DNA of 64,000 nt from Bacteroidia bacterium (GTDB taxonomy: Bacteria; Bacteroidota; Bacteroidia; B-17B0; Aurantibacillaceae), in NCBI GenBank assembly GCA_016787785.1, contig JAEUTO010000010.1, positions 124,001 through 188,000 of the forward strand. Direction: 5' to 3'. Position 1 is the stretch's first letter. Every line of letters starts with the position of its first letter. The notes under the pieces are model-generated. The model searched no databases. It worked only from the letters and a program-made list of their open reading frames with translations, and was not told the DNA's origin. This document shows, piece by piece, positions 58,139-63,600 of the stretch. Made by a program: the position numbers and the translations under genes.

Positions 58139-58702
58139 CTATTTCTTAATTCTCTCCACGTAATCACCTGTACGTGTATCTATTTTTACCCAATCTCCCT
58201 GGTTAAAAAATAAAGGCACTTTAATTTCTGTTCCAGTATCTAAGGTTGCAAATTTTAAGGTGTTGGTTGCAGTATCACCTTTTAAGCCCGGCTCTGTATA
58301 AGTAATTTCTGCTTCAATAAATGTTGGTGGTTCTGCAATAATAGGTTCGTCACCTTCAAAACTCACTTTTACTTCCATACCTTCTTTTAAGAAACGTCCG
58401 CCTTCACCAAACATAAGTAGTGGTATATGCACCTGTTCAAAATTTTCGTTATCCATTACAACAGCAAATTCACCTTCGGTATAAATGAATTGCATCATTT
58501 TATATTCTACACGAACTAGTTCAACACTTTCGCCACTTCTAAAACGGTTCTCGGTTTGTTTACCATTTTTTAAGTTGCGCATTTTAGCCTGGTAAAAAGC
58601 ACGTAAGTTGCCCGGTGTACGGTGTTGCCAATCTGTTATTTGTACAATGTCGCCGTTAAATCTGATTACTGATCCAACGTTAATATCTCCTGTGTCTGCC
58701 AT
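58139..58702 (-). CDS. efp: Elongation factor P (variant tip loop)
   Basis: 187 aa, the full three-domain length (KOW-like, OB, C-terminal OB). EF-P relieves ribosomes stalled at polyproline. The tip loop of domain 1 reads HRTPGNLRAFYQAKMRNL: relative to E. coli HVKPGKGQAF the modified lysine is replaced by Asn (about residue 32), with Arg two residues later. Thus EpmA-type lysylation or similar modification of Lys would not apply here. Other segments (RFRSGESVELVRVEYKMMQFIYTEGE) are normal. It is upstream of a lipoprotein gene and downstream of accA on the same strand. Confidence 0.93.
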   Translation of the reverse strand: MADTGDINVGSVIRFNGDIVQITDWQHRTPGNLRAFYQAKMRNLKNGKQTENRFRSGESVELVRVEYKMMQFIYTEGEFAVVMDNENFEQVHIPLLMFGEGGRFLKEGMEVKVSFEGDEPIIAEPPTFIEAEITYTEPGLKGDTATNTLKFATLDTGTEIKVPLFFNQGDWVKIDTRTGDYVERIKK

Positions 58703-58747
58703 TTGAAATGATAAATTTTAAATTATTAATTATAAATTTTTAATTAG

Positions 58748-59722
58748 TTAAGCTTCCGTTTCTACTTCTATATCGTGCACTACACCCATTGCCGAAAATT
58801 TATTAATGCGTTGCTCAATTCTTTCTTCCGCATTAAATTTACTTAAGGTTGCTAAGTGTTTTAAAATTTCTGTTTTAACCGTCGCAAAAATTTCTTCCTG
58901 GTTACGGTGTGCTCCACCTAATGGTTCTTTAATGATACCATCAATTAAACCATTCTTGCTCATATTATCAGCCGTTAATTTTAACGCGTCTGCCGCCTGT
59001 TCTTTAAAACTCCAGCTACGCCATAAAATAGATGAACATGATTCAGGCGAAATTACAGAGTACCAGGTGTTTTCCAACATTAATACTTTATCGCCAATAC
59101 CAATTCCTAGAGCACCACCGCTGGCGCCTTCGCCAATGATGATACAAATTACCGGCACTTTTAATTGCACCATCTCAAGTAAATTACGGGCAATAGCTTC
59201 ACCTTGTCCGCGTTCTTCTGCTTCCAGTCCGGGATATGCACCGGGCGTATCAATAAATGTAACAATAGGCTTGTTAAATTTTTCGGCCATTTTCATTAAA
59301 CGCAAGGCTTTGCGGTAACCCTCGGGGTTAGCCATTCCAAACCTGCGGATCTGGCGCATTTTGGTATTAATACCTTTTTGTTGCCCAATGAACATAACGG
59401 TTTGCCCGTCAATTTCACCAAAACCTCCAACCATGGCTTTATCGTCACCAACAGTGCGGTCGCCATGCAACTCCATAAACGTTTTGTTCGAAACAGAATC
59501 TATATAGGCCAGTGTATAGGGTCTTTCCGGGTGGCGACTAACCTGTACGCGTTGCCAGGGTGTTAAGTTGGAATAAAGTTCTTGGGTTTTAGCGGTAATA
59601 TGACTTTCCAGTTCTTTGATTTTTTCGGTGAGGTCTACTTTACTTTTAGAAGCAACTTCTCTAAGTTTAGTTATCTCTTCCTCTAAATCCTGAATTGGTT
59701 TTTCAAAATCCAAATAGATCAT
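58748..59722 (-). CDS. accA: Acetyl-CoA carboxylase carboxyltransferase subunit alpha
   Basis: 324 aa. AccA with AccD transfers CO2 from biotin to acetyl-CoA, the first step of fatty-acid synthesis. Features: N-terminal coiled coil ([16 protein letters not shown]), [51 protein letters not shown] (CoA region), and [14 protein letters not shown]. Its ATG has a TATCTTTG box 25 bp upstream. efp follows 45 bp downstream on the same strand, and the two may share a transcript. Confidence 0.96.
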
Positions 59723-59755: not shown

Positions 59756-59845
59756 CGGTTTTTATAAAAAACTACCATTTTTATTACCAAATCGTTAAAA
59801 AATACGCCAGTTTTGTGGATTTTAACTTACTTTTGAGGCATTAAA

Positions 59846-60214
59846 TTGATCGCTTACATATTCATTTTCTCTATTTTATTTTCGCTTTTTGCCAAATTAG
59901 AGGTGTGTATCAGCTATTTAGTAAATCAAAAGTATTACGCTGAGGTGTTATGTGAGAATAAAGAGAAAGAAGATTCGTGTTGTATGGGAAAATGTGCAAT
60001 GACCAAAGAACTAAATAATTTAGCTGAAAAAGAAGAAGAACAACCCACAAAAACCCCAAATTCTACCTTTAAAATTACCAAAGCAGAAGAAGCTGTTGTT
60101 AAGACCTTCAAATTTTATTCCCCGAGCTTTTTTCTCTATTTAATAGGTAGCTCTTTTGAAGCTGAATTAAATAAGGGAGAGTTAACGTCGTTATTTAAGC
60201 CGCCAACCGCTTAA
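59846..60214 (+). CDS. Small Cys-motif exported protein at the head of a copper-type operon
   Basis: 122 aa with a TTG start; no ATG or GTG opens the frame nearby. The N-terminus is hydrophobic (IFIFSILFSLFA), then a cysteine cluster (CENKEKEDSCCMGKCAM, residues ~36-52) and a C-terminal FKPP. The pattern recalls small Bacteroidota proteins with CC and PP motifs, often near metal genes, but the family is not certain. TACTTTTG at 59828-59835 may be its promoter box. It precedes the MbnP-like gene by 135 bp. A metal-chaperone role is an inference. Confidence 0.55.
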   Translation: MIAYIFIFSILFSLFAKLEVCISYLVNQKYYAEVLCENKEKEDSCCMGKCAMTKELNNLAEKEEEQPTKTPNSTFKITKAEEAVVKTFKFYSPSFFLYLIGSSFEAELNKGELTSLFKPPTA

Positions 60215-60349
60215 TTTTTAATTACAATTTCTTATCATGACCTGTCTCATACCACAAACTACTTTTTTATTAGTTAATGTTTGTTGTTATGCTGACGTGG
60301 CGTTATATTATTTGAACTATTTTAATTAACTTTATTAATCGTATTACAA

Positions 60350-61132
60350 ATGAAAAATATTATAAAATATATTCCTCTTTTTTTATTGCTAACCACTGTG
60401 TCTTGCAAAAAAGATAAAAAAGACCCCGAGCCAGAACCGGAGCCAACACCGGCTGCAACAACCAATACCATTAAAATATTGTTTGAGCATACTGTTGATA
60501 CAAATGAACTTGTTTTAAATCAAAACTATGTTAATCCAAACTTGGACACTTTTAAAGTAAGTACATTAAAATACTACATAAGTAATATCGTTATCACCAA
60601 AAATGACAATACTACGTTTGTAGAGCCGGAGAGTTACCATTTAATTGATGTTTCTAATTTAAGTTCAACAACAATTAGCATTCCAAATCTTCCTTTTGCC
60701 AGCTATAAATCTCTTTCATTTACTTTAGGAGTTGATAGTACCAGGAATTGTTCAGGCGCGCAAACAGGAGATCTGGCTCAAAATAAAGGTATGTTCTGGA
60801 ACTGGTCTACTGGCTATATCATGTTTAAGCTCGAAGGTACCTCGCCGCAGTCTGGCGCGTCAAACAAAAGTCTAACGTATCATATTGGTGGTTTTGGTGG
60901 CGTAAATAAAGTGCAACGCAATTTTATTTTTAATTTTGCAAGCACACCTGCAAATGTTTCAGCATCTGTTTCTCCAGTTATACATATGTCGGTTGATGTA
61001 AATGAGTTCTTCAAGAACCCCACAACAATTAATGTTGCAACTCAGCATACACAAATGTCAACAGGAGCAACTGCAAAAATGTTTGCAGATAATTACGCTG
61101 ACATGATATCGTTTGAGCATGTACATAATTAA
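60350..61132 (+). CDS. MbnP-like copper-binding lipoprotein
   Basis: 260 aa with a lipobox (TTVSCKK) and a Glu/Pro spacer (DPEPEPEPTPAA). The rest matches the MbnP domain: a KILFEHTVDTNELVLN strand, LKYYISNIVIT, and the hallmark KGMFWNWSTGYIMFK (W150, W152). MbnP proteins are periplasmic copper binders in which a Trp is oxidised to kynurenine by the MbnH partner. The following gene is the MbnH homologue, and overlaps by one base (TAATG at 61130-61134). Copper is the likely ligand by family; the modified residue cannot be proven. Confidence 0.82.
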   Translation: MKNIIKYIPLFLLLTTVSCKKDKKDPEPEPEPTPAATTNTIKILFEHTVDTNELVLNQNYVNPNLDTFKVSTLKYYISNIVITKNDNTTFVEPESYHLIDVSNLSSTTISIPNLPFASYKSLSFTLGVDSTRNCSGAQTGDLAQNKGMFWNWSTGYIMFKLEGTSPQSGASNKSLTYHIGGFGGVNKVQRNFIFNFASTPANVSASVSPVIHMSVDVNEFFKNPTTINVATQHTQMSTGATAKMFADNYADMISFEHVHN

Positions 61133-62181
61133 TGAATAGAATTGCAAATATATTTTTTTTGCTTGGTGTTTTAATTTTTGCATCCTGTAAAGTAGATCCA
61201 AAGATCATAGAACCATTGCCTGCAGATAATTTGGTTGAGGTTATTCCTGATGGATGGCCGCAACCCAAATATACTTTTAGTGTAAATACTATTAGTGAAG
61301 ATAAATTTGTTTTAGGCCGCGCTTTGTTCTATGAAGAAATGTTGAGTGTAGATAATACTATTTCCTGCGGCAGCTGTCATCAGGATTTTGCAGCTTTCTC
61401 GCATTCAGAGCATAAAGTTAGCCATGGTATTTACGACAGGCAAGGAACAAGAAATGCACCGGGTATTTTTAATTTAACCTGGCATCCGCTTTTTATGCAT
61501 GATGGTGGTATCAATCATATTGAAGTACAACCGTTAGGACCAATTACTAATACGCTTGAAATGGGCGCTGATATTAATCCCGTAATTGCAAAGTTGCAGG
61601 CCTCAAGTAAATATCAAAACCTGTTTAAAAAAGCTTATGGCAGTGATACTGTAAATAGCCAAAAATTATTGCGCGCTATGACTGTTTTTATGGGACTAAT
61701 GTATTCGTACAACAGTAAATTTGACTATTACAAACGTAACGAGAATAATGTAGAACTTTCGGATGCAGAGCTAAGAGGTTACAGTTTGTTTACAGCCAAA
61801 TGCTCCGGTTGTCATACCGAACCACTATTTTCTGACTTTGCTTTTAGAAGTAATGGTTTAACGGTTGATCCTTTTTACCAGGATAGTGGCCGCGCACATA
61901 TTACAGGCTTACCTACTGACAGGTACAAATTTAAAACACCAAGCTTAAGAAATATTGCAAAAACAGCGCCCTACATGCATGATGGGCGTTACACAACTTT
62001 AAATGAATGTTTAGATCATTATACAAATGCAATACCTAATTTAACAAATCTCGATCCCTCTATACCAACTAACGGTTTTCAGTTTAGCGCACAAAATAAA
62101 CAAGATATAATCGCGTTCTTAAATACGTTGACCGATTATAAATTTTTAGGTGATAAACGTTTTGCGAACCCAAATTTTTAA
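61132..62181 (+). CDS. MbnH-like di-haem cytochrome c peroxidase family lipoprotein
   Basis: 349 aa with a lipobox (LIFASCK). Two CxxCH haem sites: CGSCH (C79-H83) and CSGCH (C224-H228). The MauG/cytochrome c peroxidase layout is clear (GRALFYEEMLS, FSHSEHKVSHGIYDRQGTRNAP, YKFKTPSLRNIAKTAPYMHDGRY). Next to an MbnP protein it is best called MbnH-like, an enzyme that oxidises Trp in its partner with peroxide. It is translationally coupled to the MbnP gene. An ordinary cytochrome c peroxidase cannot be excluded from sequence alone. Confidence 0.82.
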   Translation: MNRIANIFFLLGVLIFASCKVDPKIIEPLPADNLVEVIPDGWPQPKYTFSVNTISEDKFVLGRALFYEEMLSVDNTISCGSCHQDFAAFSHSEHKVSHGIYDRQGTRNAPGIFNLTWHPLFMHDGGINHIEVQPLGPITNTLEMGADINPVIAKLQASSKYQNLFKKAYGSDTVNSQKLLRAMTVFMGLMYSYNSKFDYYKRNENNVELSDAELRGYSLFTAKCSGCHTEPLFSDFAFRSNGLTVDPFYQDSGRAHITGLPTDRYKFKTPSLRNIAKTAPYMHDGRYTTLNECLDHYTNAIPNLTNLDPSIPTNGFQFSAQNKQDIIAFLNTLTDYKFLGDKRFANPNF

Positions 62182-62184
62182 GCC

Positions 62185-62556
62185 ATGAAAAGATATCTTG
62201 TATATATTTTACTTTTAACATCAATTATTTTTTATTCCTGTAAAAAGAACAATGTAGGTGGCAATGCCGAAATAAAAGGTGTTATAAAACATCACGCCAA
62301 AATAATTGGTGGCGCCACGGTGTACATAAAATTCAATGCAAAAGAATATCCCGGTAGCGATGTTTCGGTTTACGATGCAACAGTAAACGCAGACGTAAAT
62401 GGAAACTATAGCATTAAATGTTATAAAGGCGATTATTATTTATACGCTGTTGGACAAGATCTTGATGTACCACCTCCATACCAGGTAAAAGGCGGCGTGC
62501 CGGTAAATATCAGGAACAGAGAAGTGGTGGAGATAGAGATCCCGGTTACGGAATAA
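62185..62556 (+). CDS. Small lipoprotein with carboxypeptidase-regulatory-like fold
   Basis: 123 aa with a lipobox (FYSCKK). The rest (GVIKHHAKIIGGATVYIKF, YDATVNADVNGNYSIKCYKGDYYLYA) looks like a small beta-sandwich of the CarboxypepD regulatory type, common in TonB receptors. It begins 3 bp after the MbnH stop, so it is part of the operon. The role is unknown; it may bind substrate or link the partners at the membrane. Confidence 0.65.
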   Translation: MKRYLVYILLLTSIIFYSCKKNNVGGNAEIKGVIKHHAKIIGGATVYIKFNAKEYPGSDVSVYDATVNADVNGNYSIKCYKGDYYLYAVGQDLDVPPPYQVKGGVPVNIRNREVVEIEIPVTE

Positions 62557-62601
62557 ATTAGTATTTCAAATGTAAAATGGTTGATATAAATATCGATCAT
62601 T

Positions 62602-63600
62602 ATGAAATTTTTAAGAGTAACAATTTTACTTTTTTTTAGTTTACCAATTTTTGCCTGCGATCTTTGTGGTAGTTTTATGGGCATAACGCCCTACGACAAT
62701 CAAAGTCAGCTGTGTATTTTGCATCGCTACCGTGTTTTTAACGGTTACCGCAATTACCAGCAAACATCAAGGTTTACAGAGCCAGGGGCTTACAAAACCA
62801 TGCACGACCCGGGAATGTTGAACCACGATTCATCTGGTATAACTAAAAACCATTCTAGTAAGGACTATGAATCCTACAAAATAATAGAATTAAGAGGCAA
62901 GTGTTTTTTTCATCCGCGCTGGGAGTTGAATTTTATTTTGCCTTTCCAGCAAATTAAAACAAAGTACGATGAGGAAAAAAATAAGGTCACCGGAATGGCC
63001 GATCCTTCTTTATTTGCAGGTTATCATTTAATTAAGCGTTTAAATGATTACAAAATAAAGCAACGTTTAATAATTGGCGCCGGTATTAAATTACCACTTG
63101 GCGTTTCCGACCAACAAAACGATGATGGTGAAAGAATGATGCTGATCAACCAAAACGGCACAGGAAGTATAGATCATTTTTATTATTTGAATTACATGCT
63201 AAGCCAAAAACGCTGGGGAGTAAATTCAAACAGTATTTTTAAAATAAACGGCAGTAATAAATATCACGAAAGATATGCCTGTTCTTACAATCAGGTATTT
63301 AGCTTATTTAGTCGGTTCGAAATAAAAGCGCTAAATGTGTTTCCTTCTATTTTCGCAAATTATGAGTACTGTAAAGGTTTATTTGTAAATGACAAGCTAA
63401 TGGAAGGCACCAATGTAAATGTATTATTACTTGGCCCTGCACTTGATATCAGTTATAAGAGTTTTGTTTTAAATACTTCTTTTCAGTTTAACGTATACGA
63501 AAGGGTGTCGAGCCAAAACCTCTCTAACGCGGGAAGGTTTGTTGTTGGCCTTACTTATAATTTTAAACAGGAAAAATATTTAATAAAAAACAAAAACTAA
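62602..63600 (+). CDS. Outer-membrane barrel-like protein with CDLCG motif
   Basis: 332 aa with a signal peptide ending in ACDLCGSFMG. The DLCG start of the mature chain, followed by ITPYDNQ, an RYRVFNGYRNY strand and many barrel-like strands (LIIGAGIKLPLGVS, LNTSFQFNVYERVS), suggests an outer-membrane porin-like or transport protein. The CxxC directly after cleavage could bind metal. It is the last gene of the MbnP/MbnH operon, 45 bp after the small lipoprotein. It is a candidate outer-membrane partner for copper. Confidence 0.65.
   Translation: MKFLRVTILLFFSLPIFACDLCGSFMGITPYDNQSQLCILHRYRVFNGYRNYQQTSRFTEPGAYKTMHDPGMLNHDSSGITKNHSSKDYESYKIIELRGKCFFHPRWELNFILPFQQIKTKYDEEKNKVTGMADPSLFAGYHLIKRLNDYKIKQRLIIGAGIKLPLGVSDQQNDDGERMMLINQNGTGSIDHFYYLNYMLSQKRWGVNSNSIFKINGSNKYHERYACSYNQVFSLFSRFEIKALNVFPSIFANYEYCKGLFVNDKLMEGTNVNVLLLGPALDISYKSFVLNTSFQFNVYERVSSQNLSNAGRFVVGLTYNFKQEKYLIKNKN

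Follow-up and report, generated by a model that had tools for sequence, protein, structure and literature searches.

Introduction

CruR of Bordetella and CutF of Rhodobacter are small exported proteins that carry a CxxC or CxxxC motif and a C-terminal Pro-Pro (PP), stand first in copper operons and act in cis (PMC9426467, PMC9973294, PMC8456105). The operons headed by CruR include MbnPH-like, TonB and PepSY genes (PMC9426467). CutF-like proteins have been defined by a length below 150 residues, PP within the last 15 residues, a signal and a same-strand gene within 1000 nt, and Bacteroidota make up 19% (40% normalised) of the published list (PMC9973294). In the literature searched, we found no copper-responsive leader studied in Bacteroidota. 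Here we analyse a 64,000-nt stretch of a Bacteroidia bacterium (Aurantibacillaceae; GCA_016787785.1, contig JAEUTO010000010.1, positions 124,001 to 188,000), hereafter the window, in which all coordinates are counted. The window list of open reading frames (ORFs) contains five genes on the + strand at 59846-63600, where an earlier note on the sequence had placed an MbnP/MbnH copper operon. Judged by its sequence and by analogy with CutF and CruR, the first of them, gene 1, probably encodes a cis-acting copper-responsive leader, and the account of the whole as a copper-regulated operon headed by this leader seems to us a likely one.

Gene 1 and its homologs

Gene 1 encodes a protein of 122 residues with PP at its C-terminus (P119-P120 of 122), an N-terminal membrane segment and a CxxxC motif (C46-x3-C50, invariant in the 37 members of the family alignment), and the MbnP gene follows on the same strand 135 nt away, all in line with the CutF rules. 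The 37 members share about 25% identity, and the only invariant residues are C36, C46, C50, P119 and P120. Between C46-x3-C50 and PP lie 63-73 residues, and PP itself is 1-9 residues from the end. To exclude circularity, the profile was rebuilt without its C-terminal (Pro-Pro) end and used to search loci outside the training set. This profile gave 107 matches, 105 of which have PP at most 10 residues from the C-terminus; among background ORFs, PP occurs in the last 12 residues in 104 of 2454. In these independent homologs the distance from the Cys motif to PP is 62-73 residues, and 64-68 in 84/96. The intervening stretch is not conserved in sequence and is nearly fixed in length, and the C-terminal consensus reads F[HRK]PPxx. 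The family measures 120-130 residues, with most homologs falling within 114-150, and a hydrophobic N-terminal segment is present in 37/37 members of the alignment (Kyte-Doolittle). Against its nearest relative, gene 1 has a dN/dS of about 0.07, like MbnP, indicating purifying selection. Homologs occur in 56/87 genomes of the order, and a profile search found the family in 123/296 Bacteroidota genomes (41%), in 61/140 genera.

CutF, from the cutFOG operon of Rhodobacter capsulatus, resembles gene 1 in its small size, N-terminal export segment, CxxxC motif, Pro-rich or PP end and position upstream of copper genes. However, its Cys-to-Pro distance is about 40 residues (C73 to P109-L118) versus 62-73 in gene 1, which moreover possesses the extra C36 at a fixed distance and has MbnP, MbnH and barrel genes as neighbours instead of a multicopper oxidase. 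CruR (DUF2946, PF11162) of Bordetella pertussis is likewise a first gene followed by a long gap, with a Cys motif and a terminal PP at fixed spacing, and it shares TonB receptors, PepSY_TM, SCO and MbnPH-like genes as operon partners; it differs in having CxxC rather than CxxxC, a spacing of 45 rather than 62-73 residues, and RAPP rather than F[HRK]PP. In Deinococcus radiodurans, a DUF2946-like RAPP leader occupies the slot of gene 1, followed by genes for MbnP, a peroxidase, CopC and CopD. We read gene 1 as a leader because of this CutF/CruR-like anatomy, its operon-heading position and the equivalent placing of the Deinococcus gene. That gene 1 belongs to DUF2946 or another Pfam or NCBIfam family was considered and rejected for want of a profile match; no model of either database covers the family. 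Gene 1 thus appears to represent a Bacteroidota-wide, unannotated CutF/CruR-like family with a spacing rule of its own, which is the advance over the earlier note. Some of its relatives may be contained in the published CutF-like list. True DUF2946-like RAPP proteins, distinct from the gene 1 family, are found in some Bacteroidota genomes (L175, L178, L185, L190, L192), with scores above the Pfam cut-off in 2/198 genomes of the phylum.

Genomic context of gene 1

The gene downstream of gene 1 is co-directional in 97/100 loci, the previous gene in 64/96. Among 60 loci, the Pfam families at the first position after gene 1 include TonB plug (22), MbnP (14), MetA barrel (6) and YtkA (4); at the second position, MauG (14), SCO1 (7) and PepSY_TM (3) occur among 50. 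These downstream genes (TonB receptors, MbnP, MetA-type barrels, YtkA, MauG, SCO1 and PepSY_TM) are of copper type, and the copper context proposed for the operon in the earlier note gains support from this. In the order, the operons take the forms gene 1-MbnP-MbnH-lipoprotein-barrel, gene 1-MbnP-barrel, gene 1-SCO1, gene 1-YtkA-TonB, and gene 1 with a Met-rich or Cys-rich barrel followed by a lipoprotein or an MbnP-like protein plus a cytochrome.

The Bacteroidota -7 promoter box TAnnTTTG precedes gene 1 in 61/101 loci (15 expected from mononucleotide shuffles) and is depleted in the gap after it (3/95, with 10 expected from the same shuffles). The depletion led us to reject an internal promoter in the gap; the one sigma-70-like match there, at 60284-60311, is no more than expected by chance in the region. 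The median length of the gap is 101 nt in the order and 120 nt in the phylum, the family range being about 70-200 bp. Rfam gave no match to a known RNA element.

About 10 Hymenobacter loci (among them L228, L232, L235, L240, L254, L257, L266 and L268) allow CTGATT at the stop of gene 1 to pair with an AATCAG a short distance ahead of MbnP, with one to three hairpins in between. As a CutF-type stem-loop this pairing is at most a lead: it is conserved in a subclade only and shows no excess over shuffles or control gaps.

The five-gene operon

The five-gene order recurs in relatives, far above chance. In a named genome collection, 64 loci with a CDxCG barrel, drawn from Hymenobacter, Adhaeribacter, Solirubrum and metagenome-assembled genomes, contain gene 1 in 60/64 and MbnP in 60/64. 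Culturable carriers of this order include laboratory strains of Hymenobacter aerophilus and H. rigui. The elements described in the earlier note, namely the small CC-motif protein on one flank and the lipoprotein and CDLCG barrel downstream, are found in the ORF list at their positions (Table 1). Likewise, the one-base overlap, by which the ATG of the MbnH-type gene shares one base with the MbnP stop, the two CxxCH motifs, KGMFWNWSTGY and the numbering of W150 and W152 are all correct in the ORF translations. Gene 1, the small lipoprotein and the barrel have no Pfam match above the cut-off.

Table 1. Features of the operon and its upstream region, in window coordinates
Feature	Position	Strand	Description
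-7 promoter box match TACTTTTG	59828-59835	+	Bacteroidota TAnnTTTG; spacing to the upstream TTTG not canonical here
Gene 1	59846-60214	+	122 aa; DSCCMGKC; TTG start uncertain; putative copper-responsive leader peptide
Cysteine motif C36-x9-C46-x3-C50 of gene 1	59951-59995	+	Putative Cu site; C-x9-C-x3-C in 96/107 independent homologs
Pro119-Pro120 near the gene 1 C-terminus	60200-60205	+	Putative ribosome pause site; PP terminal in 105/107
Gene 1-MbnP gap	60215-60349	+	135 nt; putative site of a CutF- or CruR-type switch
MbnP-family lipoprotein gene (gene 2)	60350-61132	+	260 aa; KGMFWNWSTGY; lipobox C19
MbnH-type di-haem enzyme gene (gene 3)	61132-62181	+	349 aa; two CxxCH
Small lipoprotein gene (gene 4)	62185-62556	+	123 aa
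Outer-membrane barrel gene (gene 5)	62602-63600	+	332 aa; N-terminal ACDLCG

The MbnP/MbnH pair

Gene 2 matches Pfam MbnP (PF20243; 176.7 bits against a cut-off of 27, E 6.3e-52), and gene 3 matches CCP_MauG (PF03150; 154.6 bits against 25.6, E 3.9e-45), with MbnH (6e1c, E 2.8e-43) as its best solved match in a PDB search. Both proteins stay below the NCBIfam equivalog cut-offs (gene 2, 38 of 140 bits for TIGR04052, MbnP_like_WxW; gene 3, 210.6 of 362.85 bits for TIGR04039, still its best NCBIfam model), and we therefore take the window pair as a diverged branch. A sequence/profile search of the PDB with MbnP gave nothing significant, and a fold search was needed. The top six solved matches of the MbnP model, built from the alignment of relatives (predicted local distance difference test score, pLDDT, 86), are chains of MtMbnP 7l6g, at E 7e-10 to 2e-8 and a template-modelling (TM) score of 0.55-0.60 by query. 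ORFs, Pfam, the best NCBIfam model and the fold and PDB matches thus agree with the MbnP-like lipoprotein and MbnH-like di-haem peroxidase read in the earlier note.

The haem sites of gene 3 are C79-H83 and C224-H228 (CxxCH), and its lipoprotein signal is at C19; the lipobox Cys of MbnP is likewise C19. Residues M148, W150, W152 and H178 of MbnP are invariant across 25 sequences of relatives, the WxW motif being W150-N-W152. With phmmer, the MbnP of Deinococcus aligns to 7l6g across WxW (GMYWAW / GMAWNW), and this protein, too, has the Met, the two Trp and the His. A paper of 2021 on MtMbnP reportedly describes a copper site composed of His, Met and a kynurenine derived from the first Trp of WxW. 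The conserved set of the window protein fits this composition, in residue types and not as a ligand-by-ligand match by coordinates, and M148, W150 (as kynurenine) and H178 are its predicted copper site. MtMbnP and its MbnH are likewise an adjacent pair, with the MbnP fold, a Met before WxW and a di-haem CxxCH enzyme; window MbnP, however, has 2 Cys only (C19, C134) and is without the four-Cys motif that names the MtMbnP entry.

In operons of the gene 1-MbnP-barrel type, which contain no MbnH, MbnP keeps WxW, and these genomes encode elsewhere an MbnH that is 55-61% identical (44% in one genome, which is incomplete), where examined in MbnP-MbnH-lipoprotein loci that lack gene 1. With WxW kept and MbnH encoded elsewhere in the genome, modification of MbnP in trans is plausible. 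A loss of WxW in operons without MbnH was accordingly rejected for this type; it holds only for the divergent MbnP-like proteins of Met-rich-barrel clusters, which have MWFG and no MbnH nearby. Clusters of this type (L085, L092, L095, L105, L106, L113) consist of gene 1, a Phenol_MetA_deg outer-membrane barrel with AP(A)GVMxxHxHxKGxW, the MbnP-like protein in which MWFG replaces WxW, and a small SGCH cytochrome. MbnP occurs three times in the own genome: as the window copy, in a further pair with MbnH, and alone. Close to the second MbnP-MbnH pair are genes for a redoxin, a multicopper oxidase and a YHYH protein.

The lipoprotein and the barrel

The small lipoprotein is DUF3823-like at best (E 0.034, below the Pfam cut-off). 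It is usually the third partner of MbnP-MbnH and holds the same position in relatives. The barrel contains 37 residues invariant in 20 relatives, including C19, C22, H41 and H68. Its structural model (pLDDT 73.5, the N-terminal 90 residues being mostly poor) matches FapF (5o67) and the COG4313 channel (4rl8) at E 6e-9 to 7e-9, a fold that speaks for a channel and not for a TonB receptor. The product is thus a predicted 12-strand outer-membrane channel of the COG4313 type. It shares this predicted fold with COG4313/Phenol_MetA_deg channels and FapF, and related barrels of sister operons match PF13557; the window barrel, in contrast, has no Pfam match and possesses an additional N-terminal CDxCG and conserved His residues. 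The earlier note had suggested that the unit may be self-contained and possess an outer-membrane gate. The predicted channel and the recurrent gene set favour this part of its proposal. The barrel is dispensable at some loci, MbnP-MbnH-lipoprotein loci without a barrel being known. In two or three close relatives (G005 L079/L204, G033 L074, G011 L075/L016) the barrel has decayed, either down to its last ~27 residues or into split frames, and gene 1 carries stops in G005 and G011; MbnP-MbnH-lipoprotein is intact in these relatives.

A putative model of regulation and its alternatives

Gene order, the conservation of motifs and their spacing, purifying selection, the promoter position and the fold matches enable us to propose a putative model. 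Upon translation of gene 1, its N-terminal segment would bring the ribosome to SecYEG. The ribosome would subsequently pause at the C-terminal Pro-Pro, for a time set by whether copper is bound at C-x3-C of the emerging chain. The length of the pause would in turn set the expression of MbnP-MbnH-lipoprotein-barrel through the gap, where the switch may either mask and unmask the start of MbnP, which is the proposal made for CutF, or end transcription early, as in CruR. MbnH would then oxidise W150 of MbnP to kynurenine, which together with M148 and H178 would form a Cu(I) site at the outer membrane, and the 12-strand channel beside it would carry copper or a small copper complex. In this model we infer copper as the ligand, the pausing, the direction of regulation, the kynurenine and the transport; the operon is most likely on when copper is scarce. 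The earlier note had suggested a sensing unit as one possibility; it missed the copper-sensing-leader anatomy of gene 1, which is where sensing would sit.

A nascent chain that starts at the peptidyl-transferase centre needs about 50 extended residues to get to the exit of SecYEG on the periplasmic side (PMC7513700). The 62-73 residues of the gene 1 family exceed this length, so C-x3-C would already lie in the periplasm by the time Pro-Pro is translated. The 45 residues of CruR fall short of it, so its Cys motif would not be outside at that point; for CruR, the signal is not needed and sensing of cytoplasmic copper has been proposed (PMC9426467). A tentative extension is that the family comprises phylum-wide nascent-chain copper sensors of Bacteroidota, distinct from DUF2946, which read periplasmic copper by means of the 62-73 spacing and gate MbnP/MbnH, copper TonB receptors and CDxCG barrels. 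If so, one unannotated small gene family would flag the copper-regulated operons across hundreds of genomes of the phylum, it would tie MbnP/MbnH and the CDxCG barrel to copper without methanobactin, and the natural ruler of 62-73 residues would make cytoplasmic versus periplasmic copper sensing testable.

Several observations weigh against the leader role. The gap shows no conserved RNA structure and folds no more strongly than other gaps. For a stem near the stop codon, of the kind that a paused ribosome would open, neither the window clade nor Hymenobacter shows an excess of pairing with downstream sequence, and the phylum set shows a weak one (11/48 vs 12/139, Fisher p 0.02, uncorrected). 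In several relatives gene 1 closely follows another co-directional gene, and in two that keep MbnP-MbnH it contains stops, possibly from assembly error. The DUF2946 profile has no match at E<0.1 among the 37 members, and hhalign of gene 1 with a DUF2946-like set gives a probability of 0.2%, that is, no similarity. Moreover, Cys and PP lie about 20 residues further apart than in CruR or CutF, so the mechanism could differ from theirs, and the Pro-rich end of CutF causes no strong stall by itself, according to the CutF literature.

Of the other explanations, the one that survives best is a reading along the lines of the earlier note, a copper uptake unit with the barrel as gate, MbnP as receptor, gene 1 as accessory and an ordinary transcription factor as regulator. 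The COG4313/FapF-like 12-strand model and the recurrence of MbnP-MbnH-lipoprotein-barrel as a set are in its favour, and it is compatible with the leader and may be right about the effector half; as a complete account we consider it unlikely, given that the strict Cys-PP architecture and the other copper operons of gene 1 are left unexplained. Somewhat less likely still, gene 1 could encode a copper or thiol chaperone, stable and anchored in the membrane on the periplasmic side, which would pass copper in trans to MbnP or the barrel, with PP as a protein contact. CxxxC is a typical Cu(I) site, gene 1 is regularly found beside copper genes, and a chaperone was the first idea for CutF too. However, gene 1 precedes many unrelated partners (TonB receptors, MbnP, SCO1, barrels) and, apart from Cys and PP, has no conserved surface to match them, the stretch between these motifs varies in sequence at nearly fixed length, and the first position, the long gap and the promoter in front suit a leader better.

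A response of the unit to a different metal or to oxidants, and not to copper, as other-ligand MbnP-like proteins and MauG-type peroxidases acting on peroxide might suggest, is improbable. Some CutF-like leaders precede Ni/Co genes (PMC9973294), cytochrome-like small proteins accompany the divergent clusters, and msrA lies near the window operon; against this, the neighbours include copper genes, namely those for SCO1, PepSY_TM, YtkA, CopC/CopD and a multicopper oxidase, and MbnP retains the W, M and H of the copper site. Finally, gene 1 is broken in two relatives and absent from the second MbnP-MbnH-lipoprotein loci, yet its low dN/dS, its frequency among the sampled genomes and its fixed spacing make a historical passenger without a regulatory role very improbable.

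Methanobactin and neighbouring genes

MbnP/MbnH pairs were noted in 2013 to be conserved 'far beyond' methanobactin producers (PMC3621798), so that such pairs without methanobactin are already known and common, and this part of the finding is not new. The neighbourhood of the window pair, unlike methanobactin operons, contains no MbnABC genes, as the earlier note had stated. A methanobactin link was consequently rejected: MbnA, MbnB and MbnC are absent from the operon neighbourhood, and the two DUF692 (MbnB-type) genes of the genome, which lie elsewhere, one of them bufferin-like, are not MbnABC.

Divergent from gene 1 and adjoining it, efp and accA occupy 58139-59722 on the - strand. The efp product, elongation factor P, relieves Pro-Pro pauses. 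In several close relatives accA is similarly placed, and this neighbourhood is probably mere synteny.

The bufferin-like operon of the own genome, for a ribosomally synthesised and post-translationally modified peptide (RiPP), is located at G000:C13, L269:3180-6583 (-). By eye, it comprises sigma-type and anti-sigma-type ORFs, a precursor of 120 aa in which KDGKCGE is repeated, a partner of 260 aa and a DoxX-like gene, and its DUF692 gene matches MbnB_TglH_ChrH with 329 bits. The second DUF692 gene (G000:C6, L270:4473-5968, -) is preceded by a 96-aa ORF with the C-terminus YCPPCGMG, which is a possible RiPP precursor.

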